Positions 37,841 through 48,306 of a stretch of DNA of 53,057 nucleotides are shown here, piece after piece. The stretch spans positions 1 to 53,057 of the forward strand of contig NZ_QMEA01000030.1 of the NCBI RefSeq assembly GCF_012912105.1, written 5' to 3'. The position numbers and the translations under genes are program-made. Source of the DNA: Brasilonema sp. UFV-L1. GTDB lineage: Bacteria; Cyanobacteriota; Cyanobacteriia; Cyanobacteriales; Nostocaceae. Position 1 is the stretch's first letter. The number at the start of each line of letters is the position of its first letter. The notes beneath the pieces are model-generated. The model did not search any database and had not been told where the DNA came from. It worked only from the letters and a program-made list of their open reading frames with translations.

Positions 37841-39334
37841 ATGAAGATTTTATTAGAGAGGCAATCGTCTAAACCTATATACTTGCAGATACGAGATCGC
37901 ATCAGTCGTCTCATTAAATCTGGCGCACTGCAAAGCGGCGACCGCCTTCCCTCAATCCGCTGTTTGGCAGAGAGTTTGCAAGTTAATAAACTCACAATCA
38001 TTGAAGCTTATAACGTTCTAGAAGCCGATGGTGTTGTGTGTGCGCGTCAAGGTGCAGGATATTTTGTTAATAGCGCATCTGTTCCTTCTGCTAACCTAAA
38101 ATCAACATTTGCCCCCGCACAAAATGTCATAATTCCAAAACAAGGAGGAAGTTCTTTTTTTGATATGTGTACGGCTGCAGTGCATGCACAATCTCAGCCA
38201 GGAATGATTAACCTTAGTATTGGTTTTCCTCATCCGCCAAAAGATATAGATTTAATTGCTAGACGAGCACTTAGACAAACTCCTGATACCTTATTTCAAT
38301 ACGATTTGCCTCAAGGACAATTGACTTTGCGCAGACAGATTGCTCAGATGTTAATCCAACAAGGAATGGAGGTATCAGCAGACAATTTGATTATTACCAA
38401 TGGCTCTGAGCAAGGGCTATCATTGATATTACAATATCACATACAACCAGGTGATTGGGTGATTGTTGAGAGTCCTACATATTTTGGGGCGATCGCCATT
38501 CTGGAAAAATTAAAAGCCAAAATTATAGGCATTCCCATGACTGCAGAAGGGATGAATTTAGAGTTATTAGAGCAGTATCTCAAAAGCCATCATCCAAAAT
38601 TAATTTATACCATCAGTACTTTACATAACCCTACAGGGATAACGACAACTCAAGCACATCGCCAAGAATTACTCAGGTTAGCAGAAAAATACGAGTGTCC
38701 GATTTTAGAAGATAATGCTTATGAAGGACTATGTTTTGAAATGGTACCACCACCAATCAAAGCTTTTGACAAACAAGATTTGGTGACTTATGTAAACACC
38801 TTTTCTAAAACTTTGATGCCAGGGTTACGGGTCGGTTATATGGTAGTGACAGGCAAACATTATCAAGACATTCTTGAGCAGAAATTGCTCTATGATTTCC
38901 ATACATCCACCGTTTCCCAAGCAATAGTCAGCGAGTACCTAGCATCAGGACACCTCCGCCGTCACCTCAAGCAAATGCGTGCAGAACTCCTTCAAAGCCG
39001 TAATCTTATGCTTCAAGCTTTGGAGTGTTACTTTCCCGAAGAAGCACGGTGGACTGTTCCAAATGGTGGATTATTTCTTTGGGTGCAGTTACCTGAGAAT
39101 CTTCCGACTAAGACCATTCGTATCGAAGCTTTATCACAAAATGTCTTACTTGCTTGTGGTTCGGCGTTTTTCCCAGACAAGCAAGGTTATCCAGCTATGC
39201 GGTTGAGTTATTGTCTCACACCGGAGGAGATTGAAAAAGGTATTTCTATATTGGGTAAATTGCTGAAAAAACATCTTTACAAAGGGTGTGAGAGGATATC
39301 TAATAATCATCAAACACTTGTTCACAGCATTTAG
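37841..39334 (+). CDS. MocR-type GntR regulator with aminotransferase domain
   Basis: A 497-residue transcription factor: an N-terminal GntR winged helix (YLQIRDRISRLIKSGALQSG, then LPSIRCLAESLQVNKLTIIE) fused to a fold-type I PLP aminotransferase. The PLP Lys is in NTFSKTLMPGLRVGYMV, and the Asn/Asp/Tyr pocket is in STLHNPTGITTTQAHR and PILEDNAYEGL. MocR proteins such as PdxR, GabR and TauR sense an amine or PLP and control neighbouring metabolic genes; aminotransferase activity is often lost. No obvious target operon is adjacent, so it may regulate itself or distant genes. Confidence 0.9.
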   Translation: MKILLERQSSKPIYLQIRDRISRLIKSGALQSGDRLPSIRCLAESLQVNKLTIIEAYNVLEADGVVCARQGAGYFVNSASVPSANLKSTFAPAQNVIIPKQGGSSFFDMCTAAVHAQSQPGMINLSIGFPHPPKDIDLIARRALRQTPDTLFQYDLPQGQLTLRRQIAQMLIQQGMEVSADNLIITNGSEQGLSLILQYHIQPGDWVIVESPTYFGAIAILEKLKAKIIGIPMTAEGMNLELLEQYLKSHHPKLIYTISTLHNPTGITTTQAHRQELLRLAEKYECPILEDNAYEGLCFEMVPPPIKAFDKQDLVTYVNTFSKTLMPGLRVGYMVVTGKHYQDILEQKLLYDFHTSTVSQAIVSEYLASGHLRRHLKQMRAELLQSRNLMLQALECYFPEEARWTVPNGGLFLWVQLPENLPTKTIRIEALSQNVLLACGSAFFPDKQGYPAMRLSYCLTPEEIEKGISILGKLLKKHLYKGCERISNNHQTLVHSI

Positions 39335-40006: not shown

Positions 40007-41581
40007 CTAATTCAACCGTGAAATCAAGTGTTCGCCAACACGCAACGCATTCGCCATAATCGTCAGTGCAGGACTCACAGCAGAACTAGATGGGAAAAAA
40101 CTGCCATCTACAATATAGAGATTATCTACATCATGCGTGCGACAATTCAGGTCGAGAACAGATGTTGTCGGGTCTTCTCCAAAGCGACAAGTCCCACTCT
40201 GATGCGCCACGACTCGAATAGGCGTATTGCTATAAGGATATATGCTTAACGGTAACACCGAGCTTTTTGTAGTTTTGTCTATAGCTTTCAACACCTCTGT
40301 CCAATGATAAATCAAACGGTCATGAGCCTCAACATTATTAGGCGTGTAATCCAGATGCAGCTTGGAACCTTGCACGCGCACTCTATTGTTGGAGTCAGGC
40401 AAATCTTCTGTTTGCAACCACCAACCGATTGTACGTGTTGCTAGCTGCTGTAGTCCAAATTCTGGTATGAATCTTGATAGAAGAGACAACAAAGGCGGTG
40501 CTTCAGCAGGAATCATATCCTGAAGAATACTACCTGTATTTTGGATATGACCCATCGGATATTCAAAATCTGAGTCTCCCCAATAAAAATCGTGGACGTA
40601 AATCGTCTTCTGAAACACAGCAGAGTTAGGTGTGGGAGTAAGCTGTACCACTGCTGACAACAGGTGTTTCATAAAATTGCGTCCCACCTGATCAGAACTA
40701 TTAGCTAATCCAGTAGGGTGTTTTTCATTTGGCGATCGCAACAACAAAGCTGCTGAATTTACAGCACCACACGCCAGCACTACAATATCACTGAAAAACA
40801 GATAAGATTGACCAGCAATTTCCGCTTCAACGGCTTTTACTTCTCGACCAGACGGACTAGTGTGTAAACGTACAACTTTAGCATCAGTCTTCAGCGTCAC
40901 GTTAGGAAATTCTAAAGCAGGGACAACTCCTGATACCTCAGCATCAGCTTTACCATCAATCTTACAGGGAAAGCCATCACAAGTTTTACACCGGATACAA
41001 AGACTCTGGCTACCATCACTTTCATTTAACCTTAAACCCAAAGGTAGATATCCTGGATGCAGCCCATGATGAGAGATAGCATCGCAAATTTGCTGCATTC
41101 GGGCTTCGTGGCTGATTGGAGGATAAGGATAATCTTCACTTCGAGGAGGTTCTGTTGGATCGTCTCCCTGTTTACCATGAACAGAGTAAAGCTTTTCTGC
41201 TTCTGTATAGTAAGGTTCAAAGTCTTGGTATTTTAAAGACCATTCTGGAGAGATACCATCTTGATGTTGAACCTTCTCAAAATCCTTTTCGCGCATCCGT
41301 AACAAAGCCGCACCATAAACCTTGGTGTTACCTCCAACCCAATAGTTGGTTTGGGGACGAAAAGGTTCTCCGGAAATATCGTACCACTGTTCACGAGTGT
41401 GATAACGTCCTTTTTTAAAAACCTCTCCGGCATTCCAGTTTTCATTTTCTTTGGGTAAGAAATTGCCTCTTTCTAAAACAAGAATTTTCTTACCTGTCGG
41501 TGCAAGTTTATGTATTAATGTACCTCCACCAGCACCTGTACCAACGATAATTAAGTCATAGTGTTGGTCATCAATAATCAT
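40007..41581 (-). CDS. GMC-family FAD-dependent oxidoreductase
   Basis: A 524-residue flavoprotein of the glucose-methanol-choline family. FAD binding is by YDLIIVGTGAGGGTLIHKLA and the adenine-binding ERG. The C-terminal signature holds VDGSFFPSSSAVSPALTIMA, and the active-site His lies in VVAHQSGTCRFGEDP. A Cys-rich stretch CIRCKTCDGFPCKIDG (about residue 190) is unusual for simple GMC alcohol oxidases but common in the branch with gluconate/choline-like dehydrogenases of cyanobacteria. It has a strong AAAGGAGG ribosome binding site. Substrate unknown. No signal peptide. Confidence 0.9.
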   Translation of the reverse strand: MIIDDQHYDLIIVGTGAGGGTLIHKLAPTGKKILVLERGNFLPKENENWNAGEVFKKGRYHTREQWYDISGEPFRPQTNYWVGGNTKVYGAALLRMREKDFEKVQHQDGISPEWSLKYQDFEPYYTEAEKLYSVHGKQGDDPTEPPRSEDYPYPPISHEARMQQICDAISHHGLHPGYLPLGLRLNESDGSQSLCIRCKTCDGFPCKIDGKADAEVSGVVPALEFPNVTLKTDAKVVRLHTSPSGREVKAVEAEIAGQSYLFFSDIVVLACGAVNSAALLLRSPNEKHPTGLANSSDQVGRNFMKHLLSAVVQLTPTPNSAVFQKTIYVHDFYWGDSDFEYPMGHIQNTGSILQDMIPAEAPPLLSLLSRFIPEFGLQQLATRTIGWWLQTEDLPDSNNRVRVQGSKLHLDYTPNNVEAHDRLIYHWTEVLKAIDKTTKSSVLPLSIYPYSNTPIRVVAHQSGTCRFGEDPTTSVLDLNCRTHDVDNLYIVDGSFFPSSSAVSPALTIMANALRVGEHLISRLN

Positions 41582-41770: not shown

Positions 41771-42373
41771 TCACTGCCAGATATAAATGAGAACAAACAA
41801 AATAATCCAAATCACATCAACAAAATGCCAAAACAAAGATGTGGCATTCACACCAAAGTGACTAGAATCATAATTACCCGGAATAAACGAGCGAGCAAAA
41901 ATAATCATTTGCAATATGATTCCAGTGAGAACGTGCAAACCGTGGAAACCAGTTAACAAATAGAACGTCCCACCAAAAACACCACTGGTAAAGCCAAAAG
42001 CAAGGTGATTCCATTCAATCGCCTGCCCAACAAGGAAGTAAGTTCCCATCGCCATTGTTGCCAAAAGAAACAGGCGAAATTGATTCAAGTTGTGACGTAA
42101 TAATGCACGTTCTGCCAGATAAATAACAAAACTACTAGCAACAAGAACCACCGTATTAATAGCAGGGTCTTTAATTTCTAATCCAGAAACACCAGACGGT
42201 AACCAGTCGGGAGTTGTTGTTTTGTAGACAATATATCCGGCGAAAAAACTTAAGAAAATCACACTTTCTGAGAGTAAGAACACAACAAAGCCAAACATTT
42301 TGTTGCCTTCTTCGTCGTGAGTATGCTCATGCAAAGGTTGCTGTATTTGTTCTGTAATGATGGAACTATCCAT
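41771..42373 (-). CDS. coxC: Heme-copper oxidase subunit III (ARTO type)
   Basis: A 200-residue subunit III with five hydrophobic helices, the short form usual for cyanobacterial oxidases. Family landmarks: MFGFVVFLLSESVIFLSFFA (helix 1), FYLLTGFHGLHVLTGIILQM with the conserved GxHGxHV, and LFWHFVDVIWIILFVLIY at the end. AAGGAG lies about ten bases before the ATG. It follows coxA on the same strand but 446 bases away, because a 219-bp repeat element sits in the gap, so its transcription with coxBA may be weakened or changed. It has no metal site of its own. Confidence 0.92.
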   Translation of the reverse strand: MDSSIITEQIQQPLHEHTHDEEGNKMFGFVVFLLSESVIFLSFFAGYIVYKTTTPDWLPSGVSGLEIKDPAINTVVLVASSFVIYLAERALLRHNLNQFRLFLLATMAMGTYFLVGQAIEWNHLAFGFTSGVFGGTFYLLTGFHGLHVLTGIILQMIIFARSFIPGNYDSSHFGVNATSLFWHFVDVIWIILFVLIYIWQ

Positions 42374-42819
42374 TGATGAAATTCTCCTTTATTTTACGGC
42401 TGATTATTTGTACTTAGTCGTTGGCAGTTACTCCTAGGACTTACGCAAGAACTCTCTAAAACTTTTATTCCTATGCCCTGCGGGCACGCTGCGCTAATGC
42501 GTCCTTTGCGTCCTACCCTGCGGGAAGCCCTTCGGGGAAGACCTTCGGTCTCGCTGCGCTAACGCAGTCGCCTCTGTCGGGAAACCCTCCTGCAGCGCTG
42601 TCTCACCGCTGCGCGTCTATGCGGTTCGTTTTTTCATAATTTTGCGTAAGTCCTGACTTCCTTCCCACCAAAAGATTACTGATTTTAAAACCGCACCAGA
42701 CGCAGAGAACGCAGAGGAAATACGCTTCGCTGCCCAAAAGAGGTAATTTTAGAACGAGAAGGAAGTAGTTAAACTAACCACCAACAGTCATCACAAGAAA
42801 TACATTTCTTTATGTCAAC
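42374..42819. other. coxA-coxC gap with inserted repeat
   Basis: The 446-bp gap holds a 219-bp inverted-repeat element (listed separately). The rest has an ACGCAGAGAACGCAGAGGAA stretch near 42710, part of another common dispersed repeat. No gene is present. Confidence 0.6.
42436..42654. repeat. Longer element with AGGACTTACGCA ends, inside the oxidase operon
   Basis: A 219-bp element with perfect 12-bp terminal inverted repeats, AGGACTTACGCA and TGCGTAAGTCCT, the same as in the 101-bp element at 3104. The core is different: it is GC-rich and palindromic (CCCTGCGGGCACGCTGCGC, GAAGCCCTTCGGGGAAG, GACCTTCGGTC). The same ends with different cores suggest ends recognised by one transposase. Confidence 0.75.
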
Positions 42820-44502
42820 CTACGATTTGTGATTATGAACTTGACCCGCTGTAGCTACCAATGGTTCAGATTTTCCGTAGCCATATGGTTCAGAAATCAC
42901 CACAGGAATTTCTTCAAAATTCTCTACAGGTGGTGGTGAAGAAACCAGCCACTCTAATCCAATTGCCCGCCAAGGATTTTTAGGAGCTTGCTTACCATGC
43001 ATCCAGGAAGCTATCATGTTGAGAATAAAAGGTAAAGTAGACATTCCTAGTAAAAACGCTCCAATACTGGCAACAATATTCCAGAATTCATACTCAGGAG
43101 CGTAGGAAGAAACACGACGCAACATTCCTTGTAATCCTAGAGGATGCATTGGGAAAAAGTTGAGATTGGTGCCAATAAATGCTAGCCAAAAGTGCAACTG
43201 ACCCCAGCCTTCATAATACATACGTCCAGTCATCTTAGGGAACCAGTGATATATGGCAGCATACATTCCCATCGTTACTGTACCGTAAAGAACGTAGTGG
43301 AAATGACCGACTACATAGTATGTATTATTGACGTGAACATCAATCGGAACAGAAGAGAGTGTAATGCCAGTTATTCCTGCAAACACGAACAAGATTAATC
43401 CACCCAACGCAAATAGCATTGGCGTATTTAGTCGTAGCTTTCCTCCCCAGATAGTTGCAACCCAAGCAAAGACTTTAATCCCTGTAGGTACAGAAACGAA
43501 CATTGTCGAAAGCATGAAAATCATCCGCATCCAGCCCGGAGTCCCACTGACATACAGATGGTGTACCCAAACCAAAGCACTGACTCCAGCAATCAAGAGT
43601 GATGAAAGTGCAACGACTTTGTAACCGAACAGAGGTTTACGAGCATACACAGGAAAGATTTCTGAAAAAATCCCGAAGACTGGTAGAATGATGACGTAAA
43701 CTGCAGGGTGTGAGTAGAACCAGAAAAAATGTTGAAAAAGAACTGCATTACCTCCCTTTGCAGGATCAAAAAAGCTGGTTCCAACTGTCAAGTCAAAAAG
43801 CAGCATGACTGCGCCTGCAGTTAAGGCAGGGAGTCCAAACAGTTGAATAATTTGGGCGCTGAAGACTGCCCAGACAAACAAGGGCATCCGAAAGAATGTC
43901 ATGCCTGGTGCCCGCATTTTGACAATTGTTGTCACAAAGTTGACTGCCCCCATAATCGAGGAAACCCCCGATATTGCCACAGCTAAAAGCCAGACAAATT
44001 CACCATTTATCAATTGACCTGACGGGTTTTGCAAACTGACGGGAGGGTAAGACCACCAGCCTGCTTGTGCTGGACCACCTGGGACAAAGAAACTCGCCAT
44101 CAACAAAATTCCGGCTATGGGAACCATCCAGAAGGCAACAGCATTCAAGCGGGGAAATGCCATATCTCGCGCCCCAATCATTAACGGCACAAGGTAGTTG
44201 GCAAAACCTACTAATACTGGAAATGTCCAACCGAATAACATGACTGTGCCATGCATAGTAAACATGGCATTGTAAACTGTGCGGTCAACGAGGTCTGATT
44301 CTGGGGTAATCAGTTCCCCCCGAATCACCATTGCAAATATGCCACCAACAAGAAAGAAAATGAAAGCAGTGACAATGTACTGAATACCAATGACCTTGTG
44401 GTCAGTGCTAAAGCTGAAGTATCGTTTCCAGCCTGTTGCGGCTTCGTGATCAGGTTTTGCACCACTAGTTAGACTAATGTCCTTAACAGAAATATTCGTC
44501 AT
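42820..44502 (-). CDS. coxA: Heme-copper oxidase subunit I, A2 type (ARTO)
   Basis: Catalytic subunit of 560 residues with twelve helices. All heme and CuB ligands are kept: H84 (FTMHGTVMLFG), H265, H314-H315 (VWVHHLYVSG), and H400/H402 (VVGHFHYVLYG). K343 in PTGIKVFAW (K-channel) and D113 in ARDMAFPRLN (D-channel entry) are present. The D-channel Glu of GHPEV is absent: the motif reads Y263-S-H-P-A-V, matching the YSHPxV mark of A2-type oxidases. Tyr269, which crosslinks to a CuB His, is kept. It starts 29 bases after coxB, so they are co-transcribed. Confidence 0.95.
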   Translation of the reverse strand: MTNISVKDISLTSGAKPDHEAATGWKRYFSFSTDHKVIGIQYIVTAFIFFLVGGIFAMVIRGELITPESDLVDRTVYNAMFTMHGTVMLFGWTFPVLVGFANYLVPLMIGARDMAFPRLNAVAFWMVPIAGILLMASFFVPGGPAQAGWWSYPPVSLQNPSGQLINGEFVWLLAVAISGVSSIMGAVNFVTTIVKMRAPGMTFFRMPLFVWAVFSAQIIQLFGLPALTAGAVMLLFDLTVGTSFFDPAKGGNAVLFQHFFWFYSHPAVYVIILPVFGIFSEIFPVYARKPLFGYKVVALSSLLIAGVSALVWVHHLYVSGTPGWMRMIFMLSTMFVSVPTGIKVFAWVATIWGGKLRLNTPMLFALGGLILFVFAGITGITLSSVPIDVHVNNTYYVVGHFHYVLYGTVTMGMYAAIYHWFPKMTGRMYYEGWGQLHFWLAFIGTNLNFFPMHPLGLQGMLRRVSSYAPEYEFWNIVASIGAFLLGMSTLPFILNMIASWMHGKQAPKNPWRAIGLEWLVSSPPPVENFEEIPVVISEPYGYGKSEPLVATAGQVHNHKS

Positions 44503-44531
44503 TTGTTATTTATCCTTGCGAAACTCACAAA

Positions 44532-45449
44532 TCACAACGGATTGCTGTAATTAACCACAGGAGGCTGTGCAGGCGAAACTGTCGCCCAGCCAGTTTTGAT
44601 GGATTCTTGTGTTTTCTGCGTATACTCAGCAAAAGCTTGATTCGGTGCAGGAGAAAGCTTTTGAGTTGCGGCTTGTGCAAGCCACTTATCGTAATCTTCA
44701 GGAGATTCAACAACCACATTCGCCTGCATTGTGGCAAAGTAAGTACCGCTAAATTGGGAATCGGTTAATCGATATTTGCCCACCCGAATGGGAGTGAATT
44801 CAAAATCAATTGTGCGTTTGGGAATGATGTCTTGCTTGAGTCGGAAAGCGGGAATATAAAAGCCGTGGATAACGTCTTCTGATTGCAGTGCTAAACGAAC
44901 GCGGTGATTACTTGGTAAGTGCAATTCAGTACTGGTGACATCTTGATTTGGGTAGCGGAACACCCAAGCCCACTGTTTCGCATTGACTTCAATGTTTTCT
45001 ACAGGTTCAGCTGAGGAGTTTATAGGTGCAGCATACGCTGATTCCATTCCTATTGGCGTATGCAGGTGGACAATTTCCATTGGACCACGAATCGCCATTT
45101 GGTCGTAAACTTGATAGCTATAGCCTGCAATCCATAACACCACCAAAATTGGGATGGCTGTCCAGACTACTTCCAGTGTGACATTTCCTTCAATAGGAGG
45201 ACCATCTTTAAAATCATACCTGCCTGCTCGATGGAAAGTCACGGAATATATGAGAGTTGCAGTCACTCCAAAGAAGATGAATGCACCCAGTGTGACGAGA
45301 AAGCTGAACAAATCATCTATCAGTTGTGATTCTGCTGCAGCTTGCGGAGGAAGCCAAGAATATGCCTGCTGTCCTATCCAGAGACTGACAACACTCAGGG
45401 CGATCGCACTTACAATGAGTATTAAAACATTCCAGATTTTCATAGTCAT
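44532..45449 (-). CDS. coxB: Heme-copper oxidase subunit II lacking the CuA site (ARTO)
   Basis: A 305-residue subunit II with two membrane helices (about 4-26 and 48-70; a third hydrophobic stretch WTAIPILVVLWIAGY near 96-110) and a C-terminal cupredoxin domain. The CuA site is destroyed: in LTDSQFSGTYFATMQ the Cys positions are D230 and S234 and the His position is F238; only H195 (DVIHGFYIP) and M241 remain. Without CuA it cannot take electrons from cytochrome c or plastocyanin, so the complex probably oxidises quinol, as proposed for cyanobacterial ARTO. Transcribed with the DUF2231 genes upstream. Confidence 0.95.
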   Translation of the reverse strand: MTMKIWNVLILIVSAIALSVVSLWIGQQAYSWLPPQAAAESQLIDDLFSFLVTLGAFIFFGVTATLIYSVTFHRAGRYDFKDGPPIEGNVTLEVVWTAIPILVVLWIAGYSYQVYDQMAIRGPMEIVHLHTPIGMESAYAAPINSSAEPVENIEVNAKQWAWVFRYPNQDVTSTELHLPSNHRVRLALQSEDVIHGFYIPAFRLKQDIIPKRTIDFEFTPIRVGKYRLTDSQFSGTYFATMQANVVVESPEDYDKWLAQAATQKLSPAPNQAFAEYTQKTQESIKTGWATVSPAQPPVVNYSNPL

Positions 45450-45488
45450 TAGTTATCAGTTATCAGTCATCAGTCATTAGTCATTAGC
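45449..45488. repeat. Degenerate heptamer repeat between DUF2231 and coxB
   Basis: Five or six imperfect seven-base units of the AGTTATC/AGTCATT type run through the 69-bp gap before coxB. They resemble the short tandemly repeated repetitive sequences known from heterocystous cyanobacteria. Confidence 0.55.
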
Positions 45489-45518
45489 AAATAACAAATG
45501 ACTAAGGACTAGAATTAT

Positions 45519-46124
45519 TTACTTCAGCAACGTATTGGGGTTTTGACCCAATCGCAACAACATATCGGCGGTATTATGTACCCCAAACTCAGCAGCCAGT
45601 TGTGCTCCTAGTGTTCCATGTAGGTACAATAAGAACATGATTGCGAAGCCAGAAGCTAGGTAACTCCAATGCACTTGTTGGCTTTCGTCCTTGCACCACA
45701 CATAGCGCTGCAATCCTCTCCAGACAGTCATACCAACAATCAGCGTTAATAAGAAAACACCACCCACACCATGCCAAAGCATTGTTTCTATTGGTTGCAA
45801 TCCCCAGGCACTCTTCACATCAGATGGTGCATCTGCTAGCATCATTTCGTAAAAGCCTGCTGCTACAGTAAAAAATGTGATAACAGCTGAAGCCAGCACG
45901 TTATACCAGCCAACATCAAAGAAGTTGGAACGAACAGCCTTAATTGCCAAAAACTTGAAGACTAGAGTTTGTAAAGGGAACAATACACCAACGACATCAA
46001 AGAGAATGCCAAGAATAAACAAACCTAGGGTGAGATGAACCAAGTTTGGATGAATTGGTATCGCATAGGGCAATCCGTTTGCACCAAGATGTGTTTTTAA
46101 TTGGTCAAGAACTTCAGCGTTCAT
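45519..46124 (-). CDS. DUF2231 membrane protein, second gene of the oxidase operon
   Basis: A 201-residue membrane protein with four helices. It opens with a conserved IPIHPNLVHLTLGLFILGIL, the HPxxVH motif typical of DUF2231, and has further helices at DVGWYNVLASAVITFFTVAA, VGGVFLLTLIVGMTVWRGLQ and YLASGFAIMFLLYLHGTLGA. The start overlaps the stop of the first DUF2231 gene as ATGA. DUF2231 proteins have been linked to heme and redox membranes; the His in the membrane (LWHGVGGVF, YLHGTLG) could bind heme b. Its place in front of coxB suggests it feeds or assembles the oxidase, which is inferred. Confidence 0.85.
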   Translation of the reverse strand: MNAEVLDQLKTHLGANGLPYAIPIHPNLVHLTLGLFILGILFDVVGVLFPLQTLVFKFLAIKAVRSNFFDVGWYNVLASAVITFFTVAAGFYEMMLADAPSDVKSAWGLQPIETMLWHGVGGVFLLTLIVGMTVWRGLQRYVWCKDESQQVHWSYLASGFAIMFLLYLHGTLGAQLAAEFGVHNTADMLLRLGQNPNTLLK

Positions 46125-46621
46125 TGTAATAATCCCTCCTTGAGTGCTTCAACAACTGGTACTGTATGCAGTCCATACACCCAAACCAGTTTGTCTCCGA
46201 GATATACTTGTACGCCAACCATAAGAGTTAAAATCAGTCCCAGTGCAAGATAAGAAAACGGTATTTTATGTGGAGTACGGCTACGAATCACATACCGCCA
46301 AGCTGTAATAGATGCAAGGATTCCTGAAAGTGACCAACCAAGAAATGTATGGACATTCAGCACTGACTCAACAGCATCATAAGGTTCTGCCAAACCTGCT
46401 TCAAACTGACCAAAAATAATGGCAATGAAGATGGAAATTGTAGCGAAAAACATATTCCACCAACTCACCTCAAAAAGACGATATTTTCCGCTTAAATAGC
46501 CAATAACATCGCAAATGAAGGCAAACAAGACCATCGCAATCACAAAGTGTACAACAATGGGATGAACTGTATCCGGATACGGTAAATTGTGGTCATTCAA
46601 AGCCGGAAGATACTCAAACAT
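46121..46621 (-). CDS. DUF2231 membrane protein, first gene of the oxidase operon
   Basis: A 166-residue paralogue of the next gene, also four helices: TVHPIVVHFVIAMVLFAFIC with the HPxxVH motif, FFATISIFIAIIFGQFEAGL, LGWSLSGILASITAWRYVIR and LALGLILTLMVGVQVYLGDK. The AGGAG six bases upstream of the start is a strong ribosome binding site. It is the first gene of a leftward unit of at least four genes (DUF2231, DUF2231, coxB, coxA), with coxC after a gap. A TTTGTCA palindrome lies about 120 bases upstream. Confidence 0.85.
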   Translation of the reverse strand: MFEYLPALNDHNLPYPDTVHPIVVHFVIAMVLFAFICDVIGYLSGKYRLFEVSWWNMFFATISIFIAIIFGQFEAGLAEPYDAVESVLNVHTFLGWSLSGILASITAWRYVIRSRTPHKIPFSYLALGLILTLMVGVQVYLGDKLVWVYGLHTVPVVEALKEGLLQ

Positions 46622-46759: not shown

Positions 46760-46805
46760 ATAACTTTTTCGGACTTTTTGTCAGCCGTTGTAGAGAGTGT
46801 TTAAC

Positions 46806-46837
46806 AGTTATCAGTTATCAGTTATCAGTTATCAGTT
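46806..46837. repeat. Heptamer tandem repeat (AGTTATC)n
   Basis: Four perfect AGTTATC units followed by AGTT. Such seven-base tandem repeats (STRR) are typical of heterocystous cyanobacteria. Similar but degenerate stretches occur near 6000, 37130 and 45450. Confidence 0.8.
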
Positions 46838-47244
46838 GCTTTATAATTGTTCATGACTAACTGATTGACTGAAAACCTACTACTTAACAGAATGACGTTT
46901 GAGTCATCTGGCGTGCAATAAACACGCGTAATCATGCGATACCTACTTTGAGGTTCAGATGCTCAATCATGAAGTTAGAAAATAGCCATAGGTTTTCAGT
47001 TCAAACCTGACTCAATAGCAGCCCCATGCCCAATACATTTGTATTTTTGTGGTAACTTTATCCCCTGGGCTGTTTACCACTGTTAGCTATCTTAAACTTA
47101 TGTAAATAAAATTTATGTATCGTTTGATAGTTTCATATTTTTTTTATTTTGTTATCATAGGACAATAAAATCAACTTTTTTCTATCTTTAAGATTATAAA
47201 AAGTAGCACAAACAATCACAGAACCAAGCATATCAACAATAGTT

Positions 47245-48306
47245 ATGCAAACGCTTGCAGACAGTTTGTTCCAAGAAGCAAAGACAGTCGAGGCATCTAA
47301 CGGTTCGGCTTGCTATTTTCCCCTTAATAATGGGCGGTACGAGGTAAAGCCTGGTTTTATTCCTTTCGGCTTCTGCTTCGGTAACGGTGAGGCAGACAAG
47401 CAAGTCTTTCAAATTGATGATAACTTCACTCACTACCATCAAGTTAAGCTTTTGGCTCGTGCTGAACGATTGAGCAAATATTACCAAACCTGTTATTATT
47501 CTGATACTGTTACAAGTGAGTTAACGCGGAGTGATTTGCCATCAGGCATTGCTCATTTGATTATTCACCGTCTTACTCAAGAACACCCTCAACACTTTTA
47601 CACTGAACGGTTACCCAGTGGCGAAATAGCATTTTACAGCCAGCTAACCGGAGAAACTCTTTACCTGAATGCCAATTGCGAGTTACAGCAAATCGAAACC
47701 CAGGGTGAACAAGTTATTCCACCTTACGCCTCTACCCTCGATGCTTTAGCAGTACAAGTACAAGAAGACATAGCAGTGATCCGTCGTTGGGCAGATGGTA
47801 GCAACGTCTTGAGTGCAGTTCATCTATGCTACCCCAACCATTGGTCAGCCGAGGAAAAAATTGGCAAGGACTTTGTTACTGTACACTCACCTGTAGCTGG
47901 TATAGATAAAATTAATCGACGGGCGAGTGCTATTGTCAATACGATGATTGTCCGGGAACCAATGGTGCGCTTTTCTTGGGGCTTGAGTACTGACACCCGC
48001 CTAAATCACCATCCCGAACCACCTCTCAATGTAGCAATTAACCAGTGGCAGGGGAGAATGTTTCATCGAGAAAACCCCCAACTGTTTCTTAGAATTGAAC
48101 GACAAGTCATTTGGGGGCTACCAGAATATGATACAGCACTATTCACCATCCGTACTTACTTTAGGGATTGTCGTGAAGTTAAAAAAGATATAAATTTGCG
48201 GCAAAAACTATCTTCTTCCATCCAGTCTATGACGCAAGAGTCCCTAGTTTATAAGGGTTTGGTGGAAAATAGAGACAGTATTCTCGCATGGCTAGAGGAA
48301 GTTTGA
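47245..48306 (+). CDS. DUF3445 heme-dependent oxidative N-demethylase-like protein
   Basis: A 353-residue soluble protein of the DUF3445 family, which includes the heme-dependent oxidative N-demethylase (HODM) that releases formaldehyde from dimethylamine. The characteristic central segment is present: HLCYPNHWSAEEKIGKDF followed by TVHSPVAGIDKINRRA, and later MVRFSWGLSTDTRLNHHPEP. The family's axial ligand and PAS-like fold are expected from these, not shown. It starts with ATG in a very AT-rich leader. Neighbours (oxidase operon on one side, YdcF-like on the other) give no hint about its substrate. Confidence 0.82.
   Translation: MQTLADSLFQEAKTVEASNGSACYFPLNNGRYEVKPGFIPFGFCFGNGEADKQVFQIDDNFTHYHQVKLLARAERLSKYYQTCYYSDTVTSELTRSDLPSGIAHLIIHRLTQEHPQHFYTERLPSGEIAFYSQLTGETLYLNANCELQQIETQGEQVIPPYASTLDALAVQVQEDIAVIRRWADGSNVLSAVHLCYPNHWSAEEKIGKDFVTVHSPVAGIDKINRRASAIVNTMIVREPMVRFSWGLSTDTRLNHHPEPPLNVAINQWQGRMFHRENPQLFLRIERQVIWGLPEYDTALFTIRTYFRDCREVKKDINLRQKLSSSIQSMTQESLVYKGLVENRDSILAWLEEV

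Follow-up and report, generated by a model that had tools for sequence, protein, structure and literature searches.

Our analysis concerns a 53,057-nucleotide stretch of the genome of Brasilonema sp. UFV-L1 (contig NZ_QMEA01000030.1, positions 1 to 53,057; hereafter the window), in which five genes on the minus strand, in the order DUF2231a-DUF2231b-coxB-coxA-coxC, encode a heme-copper oxidase preceded by two membrane proteins of the DUF2231 family, with a gene for a GMC-family flavoprotein downstream (Table 1). The locus is almost certainly a type-1 alternative respiratory terminal oxidase (ARTO), known in Anabaena as Cox3 or Qox, and the DUF2231 pair is probably a subunit or a dedicated factor of this oxidase. 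The ARTO identity, already proposed in an initial annotation of the window, is borne out by the gene order printed for Anabaena sp. PCC 7120 (alr2729-alr2730-coxB3-coxA3-coxC3) in the accessible part of a review (PMC6616624) and by the loss of CuA; like the Anabaena enzyme as it appears there and in the available text of PMC7065334, the window operon has two membrane-protein genes first and a subunit II without CuA. Open reading frames (ORFs), strands, coordinates and Pfam matches also agree with the proposal that two overlapping DUF2231 genes open the operon: the stop of DUF2231a and the start of DUF2231b share four bases (ATGA), the same end that DUF2231a shows in 22 of the 28 loci checked. 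The Brasilonema genome codes for three CoxA; the two not in this operon are encoded in coxBAC sets with a CoxB that bears the CuA motif.

Table 1. Genes of the window operon and of the ccoN-ccoO operons that carry the same DUF2231 pair
Feature	Position	Strand	Evidence
DUF2231a, 166 aa	46121..46621	minus	Pfam PF09990 4.6e-42, 143.8 bits vs gathering 26.4; four predicted transmembrane helices
DUF2231b, 201 aa	45519..46124	minus	Pfam PF09990 4.9e-36, 124.3 bits vs gathering 26.4; four predicted transmembrane helices
CoxB, subunit II without CuA ligands	44532..45449	minus	Pfam COX2_TM + COX2
CoxA, subunit I	42820..44502	minus	Pfam COX1; NCBIfam CtaD_CoxA
CoxC, subunit III	41771..42373	minus	Pfam COX3 2.1e-34
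GMC-family FAD oxidoreductase, candidate optional operon member	40007..41581	minus	Pfam GMC_oxred_C + GMC_oxred_N
ccoN-ccoO-DUF2231a-DUF2231b-NDH-2-like operons	L138:1008-6135, L137:5578-10657		C-type oxidase set, no ccoP over cut-off, same pair as in ARTO

Subunit II has lost the CuA site

The window CoxB carries D230, S234 and F238 in the alignment columns where CuA-bearing CoxB have their two Cys and second His, and retains only H195 and M241, exactly the residues listed in the initial annotation; the same columns hold Cys, Cys and His in the two other CoxB of the genome. All 81 CoxB of a first alignment have D230, S234 and F238; they comprise the window protein and the 80 best-scoring of 528 relatives found in named genomes, retrieved with search patterns that lay in the CuA region and hence favoured this very motif. 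The three residues are likewise invariant in all 39 rows of a second set, among them the window and its own locus, with M241 kept in 38 of the 39. They are also present in the CoxB of all ten relatives inspected residue by residue besides the window. The loss of CuA is thus fixed in this family and is not a sign of decay. The protein scores below its own NCBIfam cut-off (123.4 vs 147.7 bits), yet above its scores as QOXA and CyoA.

Subunit I is nearer to the cytochrome c oxidase model than to CyoB or QoxB

CoxA keeps the heme and CuB histidines (H84, H265, H314, H315, H400 and H402) together with K343, and has YSHP instead of GHPE, which we take to be the defining mark of A2-type heme-copper oxidases. 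The extended motif YSHPAV, counted initially as part of the ARTO pattern, does lie at Y263-V268 and recurs in 74 of 76 ARTO-like CoxA, but it is shared by the two CuA-type CoxA that this genome encodes and by 12/12 CuA-type cyanobacterial CoxA. We therefore rejected it as an ARTO mark: the motif is general to cyanobacterial CoxA and uninformative on the electron donor.

The window CoxA passes the NCBIfam CtaD_CoxA cut-off (679.7 vs 670.75 bits) and falls far below those of CyoB (444.5 vs 1020.35) and QoxB (442.8 vs 1015.5). Aligned with E. coli CyoB, it has V52, F56, V76 and A79 at the positions of R71, D75, H98 and Q101, which we assume to form the bo3 quinol site, and none of these four residues occurs in any of the 76 ARTO-like CoxA. 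Q101 is present in 9 of the 12 CuA-type CoxA and so is not, alone, quinol-specific. These results weaken the earlier proposal of a quinol donor as far as a bo3-like quinol oxidase is concerned; if plastoquinol is the donor, it does not use the presumed bo3 site. In a tree of 45 CoxA (32 ARTO, 12 CuA-type and E. coli CyoB, the latter on a very long branch), the ARTO proteins lie on one side of a branch with moderate support (79/68), a split recovered in 84% of 200 bootstrap trees, and so stand apart from the CuA-bearing oxidases, whose own group is supported at 94/88.

The DUF2231 pair accompanies CuA-less CoxB across the phylum

Among near relatives, 23 DUF2231 pairs were seen besides that of the genome itself; in all 20 that were fetched, a coxB like that of the window comes next, with coxA-coxC after it in 19. 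In the 80 named loci, the pair precedes coxB in 79, and the exception (L039) has just 240 bases of contig before coxB. We then considered 146 genomes drawn from the phylum and searched with PF09990 and a profile of CuA-less CoxB, whose scores were bimodal, with 41 matches at ≥388 bits (CuA-less) and 81 at 187-256 bits (CuA-type); neither group includes a 129.9-bit fragment or the matches below 116 bits, most of which come from deep-branching genomes, and 69 of the 146 genomes gave no match at all. A tandem DUF2231 pair lies within 4 kb of 37 of the 41 CuA-less coxB, always upstream and on the same strand, and occurs in 35/35 genomes that have a CuA-less CoxB; three genomes have a pair but no CuA-less CoxB and 108 have neither. 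No DUF2231 of any kind was found within 4 kb of the CuA-type CoxB of these genomes (0/81). The linked cases belong to nine families, as labelled by the tool, and Fisher's test gives p 1e-30 when shared descent is ignored. The linkage suggested in the initial annotation thus extends well beyond the window, and the pair marks ARTO operons better than YSHPAV. Of the two results that the annotation said would refute it, namely a grouping of CoxA and CoxB with CuA-bearing oxidases and a lack of linkage in other genomes, neither was obtained. Over 28 loci, pairwise distances of DUF2231a correlate with those of CoxB (0.90) and CoxA (0.91) about as strongly as those of CoxB and CoxA with each other (0.91), all uncorrected for relatedness.

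The association also holds where the operon is broken up. In three genomes (G086, G090 and G103), the pair and coxB stand at separate loci, both kept, and CoxA is found at a third place. In G018 (L026), an NDH-2-like gene is followed by DUF2231a-DUF2231b-coxB and the ARTO CoxA lies elsewhere. Another genome, G072, has a tandem pair of the single type of DUF2231, and no oxidase is listed in its neighbourhood. Two genomes without CuA-less CoxB, G120 and G053, carry the pair in ccoN-ccoO operons (Table 1). Like the window operon, these associate the same DUF2231a/b, with their invariant His, with a heme-copper oxidase; unlike it, the oxidase is of the C-type, with a monoheme ccoO, and the operon includes an NDH-2-like gene. 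No ccoP was found over the cut-off in either genome, with weak cytochrome c matches only; an ORF with two c-type heme motifs lies beside ten of the other CcoN matches. An NDH-2-like gene is also found upstream of the pair at L140 and L142, and not at L144; the label is ours, resting on Pfam Pyr_redox_2 in L026, L137 and L138 and on likeness in L140 and L142, and none of these genes met an NCBIfam cut-off. Two further arrangements were noted: a third DUF2231 pair of G070 (L147:8172-9864) precedes a 105-aa CoxB fragment and an ORF with matches to CoxA as well as CoxC, and an ORF that, read by eye, resembles an IscB-type HNH nuclease separates an ARTO coxB from coxA (L023:4105-5367).

Conserved histidines on the predicted lumenal side

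Among 25 aligned sequences each, DUF2231a has invariant D17, H20, H25, E74, H91 and H152, and DUF2231b invariant H25, H30, E93, H118 and H183. Hydropathy averaged over the same alignments gives the helix predictions of Table 1. The loops after helices 1 and 3 are net positive, and both termini and the loop between helices 2 and 3 net negative, a charge pattern that would place the N and C termini towards the lumen or periplasm. In this predicted topology, invariant His fall on helices 1 and 3, and all the invariant His and Glu, as well as D17, lie on the P side, at helix ends or just inside them, where CuA would be. The membrane histidines noticed initially in both proteins are real, four invariant ones in each, but they are predicted to sit at or near the membrane edge and not in mid-membrane. 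This conservation and the predicted placement would fit a redox, heme or metal site.

All 60 aligned DUF2231 proteins have H20 and H91 and an acidic residue at positions 74 and 38, so that single DUF2231 proteins (PF09990) share these features with the members of the pair. By contrast, H25 and H152 occur in 46/46 pair members and 0/14 singles, and the singles form a separate group in the tree (100/100), as do DUF2231a (95/92) and DUF2231b (95/95); in each of the two pair groups, the ccoNO-linked proteins lie close to the base. We found no role for DUF2231, COG4244 or PF09990 in the accessible parts of the literature searched, outside which lie most subscription journals, and the texts retrieved call these proteins, alr2729 and alr2730 included, hypothetical or putative membrane proteins.

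Single DUF2231 proteins outside cyanobacteria

The genome's single-type DUF2231 matched 132 plasmid records, seven of which were opened. In Roseomonas, Paracoccus and Pararhizobium, the single DUF2231 gene adjoins coxB, coxA, a gene of the CopD family (UPF0093) and a CtaG-type gene; at two rhizobial plasmid places it adjoins a sorbosone dehydrogenase gene; in Spirosoma, an oxidase subunit I lies 1.3 kb downstream; and the Azospirillum plasmid locus that was opened has no oxidase. The DUF2231 family is thus tied to oxidases more widely, and the tie is not limited to CuA loss. No plasmid relatives were found for the DUF2231 proteins of two deep-branching genomes. Around the seven deep-branching matches, whose neighbours were inspected by eye, no oxidase link stood out, in listings of longest ORFs that hid the DUF2231 frame in several cases. 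Two plasmid CoxB beside a single DUF2231 have altered ligands of their own: that of Pararhizobium (L200:6305-6964) has Ser for both Cys, Tyr for His and His for Met, apparently a separate loss of CuA, and that of Roseomonas (L194:6362-7036) keeps Cys, Cys and His, with Met alone replaced by His.

How electrons might reach the oxidase

The best explanation, to which we give about an even chance, is that the operon encodes a five-gene oxidase, with the DUF2231 pair as a candidate module between quinol and oxidase. CoxA would reduce O2 at its heme-copper centre, CoxB would be the former CuA cupredoxin scaffold, and DUF2231a/b would be a membrane partner reserved for this oxidase, with electron entry as its most likely function. 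In each DUF2231 protein, the invariant His and Glu would form a site on the lumen or periplasm side, probably with a b-heme or a metal, where plastoquinol would be oxidised; from there the electrons would reach the low-spin heme in CoxA, bypassing CuA and cytochrome c. In this scheme, we infer complex formation, the cofactor, the donor and the direction of electron flow. That the pair itself is the site of electron entry falls, in our judgement, just short of an even chance. A broader proposal is more tentative and somewhat more likely wrong than right: DUF2231a and DUF2231b might form a membrane heterodimer with one P-side His/Glu redox site per half, which would take electrons from plastoquinol and feed two oxidase families that lack their normal entry module, the A-type without CuA and the C-type ccoNO without ccoP.

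Several observations weigh against such a role. DUF2231a has no match in the PDB at E values up to 10, and DUF2231b matches CP47 chains alone, at E 0.44 to 0.47, which we took as chance. Distances of DUF2231b correlate less with those of CoxB (0.77) and CoxA (0.79) over the same 28 loci, again uncorrected for relatedness. The 81 CuA-type CoxB were assigned by score, with the CuA motif confirmed in the 12/12 checked, and one coxBAC set of G070 has no adjoining pair, though this genome has pairs elsewhere. Within the stretches compared, the pair stands beside only 2 of 26 CcoN matches (from 24 of 386 genomes), these two being relatives; in G012, the stretch around ccoN-ccoO likewise shows one monoheme partner and lacks any DUF2231, which means that the rule that ccoNO without ccoP carries the pair is not strict. 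Outside cyanobacteria, finally, single DUF2231 genes adjoin assembly genes, once (in Paracoccus) together with a CoxB whose CuA site is intact.

This last arrangement, with CopD-family and CtaG-type assembly genes and coxB-coxA beside an alphaproteobacterial single DUF2231, favours another view, in which the pair would be an assembly or cofactor-insertion factor (for heme or CuB) dedicated to the oxidase, and quinol would bind elsewhere in CoxA or CoxB; the invariant His could then hold heme or copper in transit. We consider it unlikely, as the other oxidases of the same genomes have no DUF2231 neighbour (0/81) and the pair of G018 stays by coxB while CoxA, the holder of heme and CuB, lies elsewhere. 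It seems more improbable that ARTO is a bo3-like three-subunit quinol oxidase, passing electrons from plastoquinol directly to the heme of CoxA, with the DUF2231 proteins as passengers or regulators, although this is the view printed in the accessible part of PMC6616624. Like E. coli CyoABCD (bo3), the window oxidase has no CuA in subunit II, as in subunits of the CyoA/QoxA type, and keeps the heme and CuB ligands in subunit I; unlike bo3, no cyoD-like gene was noted among the window ORFs listed, CoxA is closer to the cytochrome c oxidase model than to CyoB or QoxB, and all 76 ARTO CoxA lack the presumed quinol-site residues. Passenger genes would moreover be unexpected in 35/35 genomes, a count inflated by shared descent.

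Very improbable, in our opinion, is a substrate-to-oxygen chain in which electrons would go directly from the GMC dehydrogenase (in other genomes, from an NDH-2-like enzyme) to the DUF2231 pair and then to the oxidase. The GMC gene directly follows coxC in several distant lineages, the nearest solved relatives of its product are FAD (flavin adenine dinucleotide) glucose and fructose dehydrogenases, and DUF2231 adjoins sorbosone dehydrogenase on the rhizobial plasmids; however, a GMC match in this place was found for just 28 ORFs over 119 loci scanned (a few places having been fetched twice). The window protein has a Cys cluster (C195, C198, C201, C206) at what we take to be the place of the Fe-S ligands in FAD glucose and fructose dehydrogenases; this cluster is shared by just 16 of 29 aligned proteins, and we dropped it as a conserved electron relay. 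The GMC protein may be an optional electron source.

If the DUF2231 pair is indeed the quinol-to-oxidase module, the cyanobacterial ARTO would have five subunits and a mechanism different from that of bo3, and the DUF2231 family would receive its first role, as far as the accessible literature shows. In the available text of PMC6616624, whether ARTO has more than three subunits is left open; with a two-protein partner that is almost always present and has an invariant His/Glu cluster, both subunit number and electron entry become directly testable. New here are the linkage and co-occurrence of the pair with CuA-less CoxB across the phylum, its presence beside ccoNO, the lack of the presumed bo3 quinol-site residues in ARTO CoxA, and the invariant His and Glu of the pair on the predicted lumenal or periplasmic side, some of the His being pair-specific; the ARTO gene order was already known.

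Expression, regulation and gene surroundings

According to the accessible text of the papers concerned, the heterocyst oxidase Cox3/ARTO helps to shield nitrogen fixation from O2 (PMC6616624), alr2729, alr2730, cox3B and cox3A are down about fourfold in the cse mutant, which has few heterocysts (PMC7065334), two tables of a study on sigC list alr2730 with coxB3 and alr2729 with alr2730 (PMC4390870), and the DNA upstream of alr2729 is bound by NtcA (PMC3898017). In the window, the 400 bases upstream of DUF2231a contain no exact match to the NtcA site GTAN8TAC; over the same distance, exact sites occur in 5 of 79 named loci vs 8.85 expected from shuffling, which gives no support for an NtcA site. 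Compared by printed gene order, the window differs further from Anabaena cox3 by its GMC gene, which starts 189 bases past coxC on the same strand, and by a 446-base gap between coxA and coxC (42374-42819). This gap is GC-rich and repeat-like, without gene-like ORF, and is much shorter in most of the fetched relatives. Short tandem runs of the AACTGAT/GACTGAT type lie upstream of DUF2231a (46780-46850) and between DUF2231b and coxB (45440-45520). Upstream of the operon, a divergent gene (47245-48306) matches PF11927, resembling the alpha subunit of a heme-dependent oxidative N-demethylase, and a MocR-type gene (GntR and aminotransferase domains, 37841-39334) lies beyond the GMC gene.

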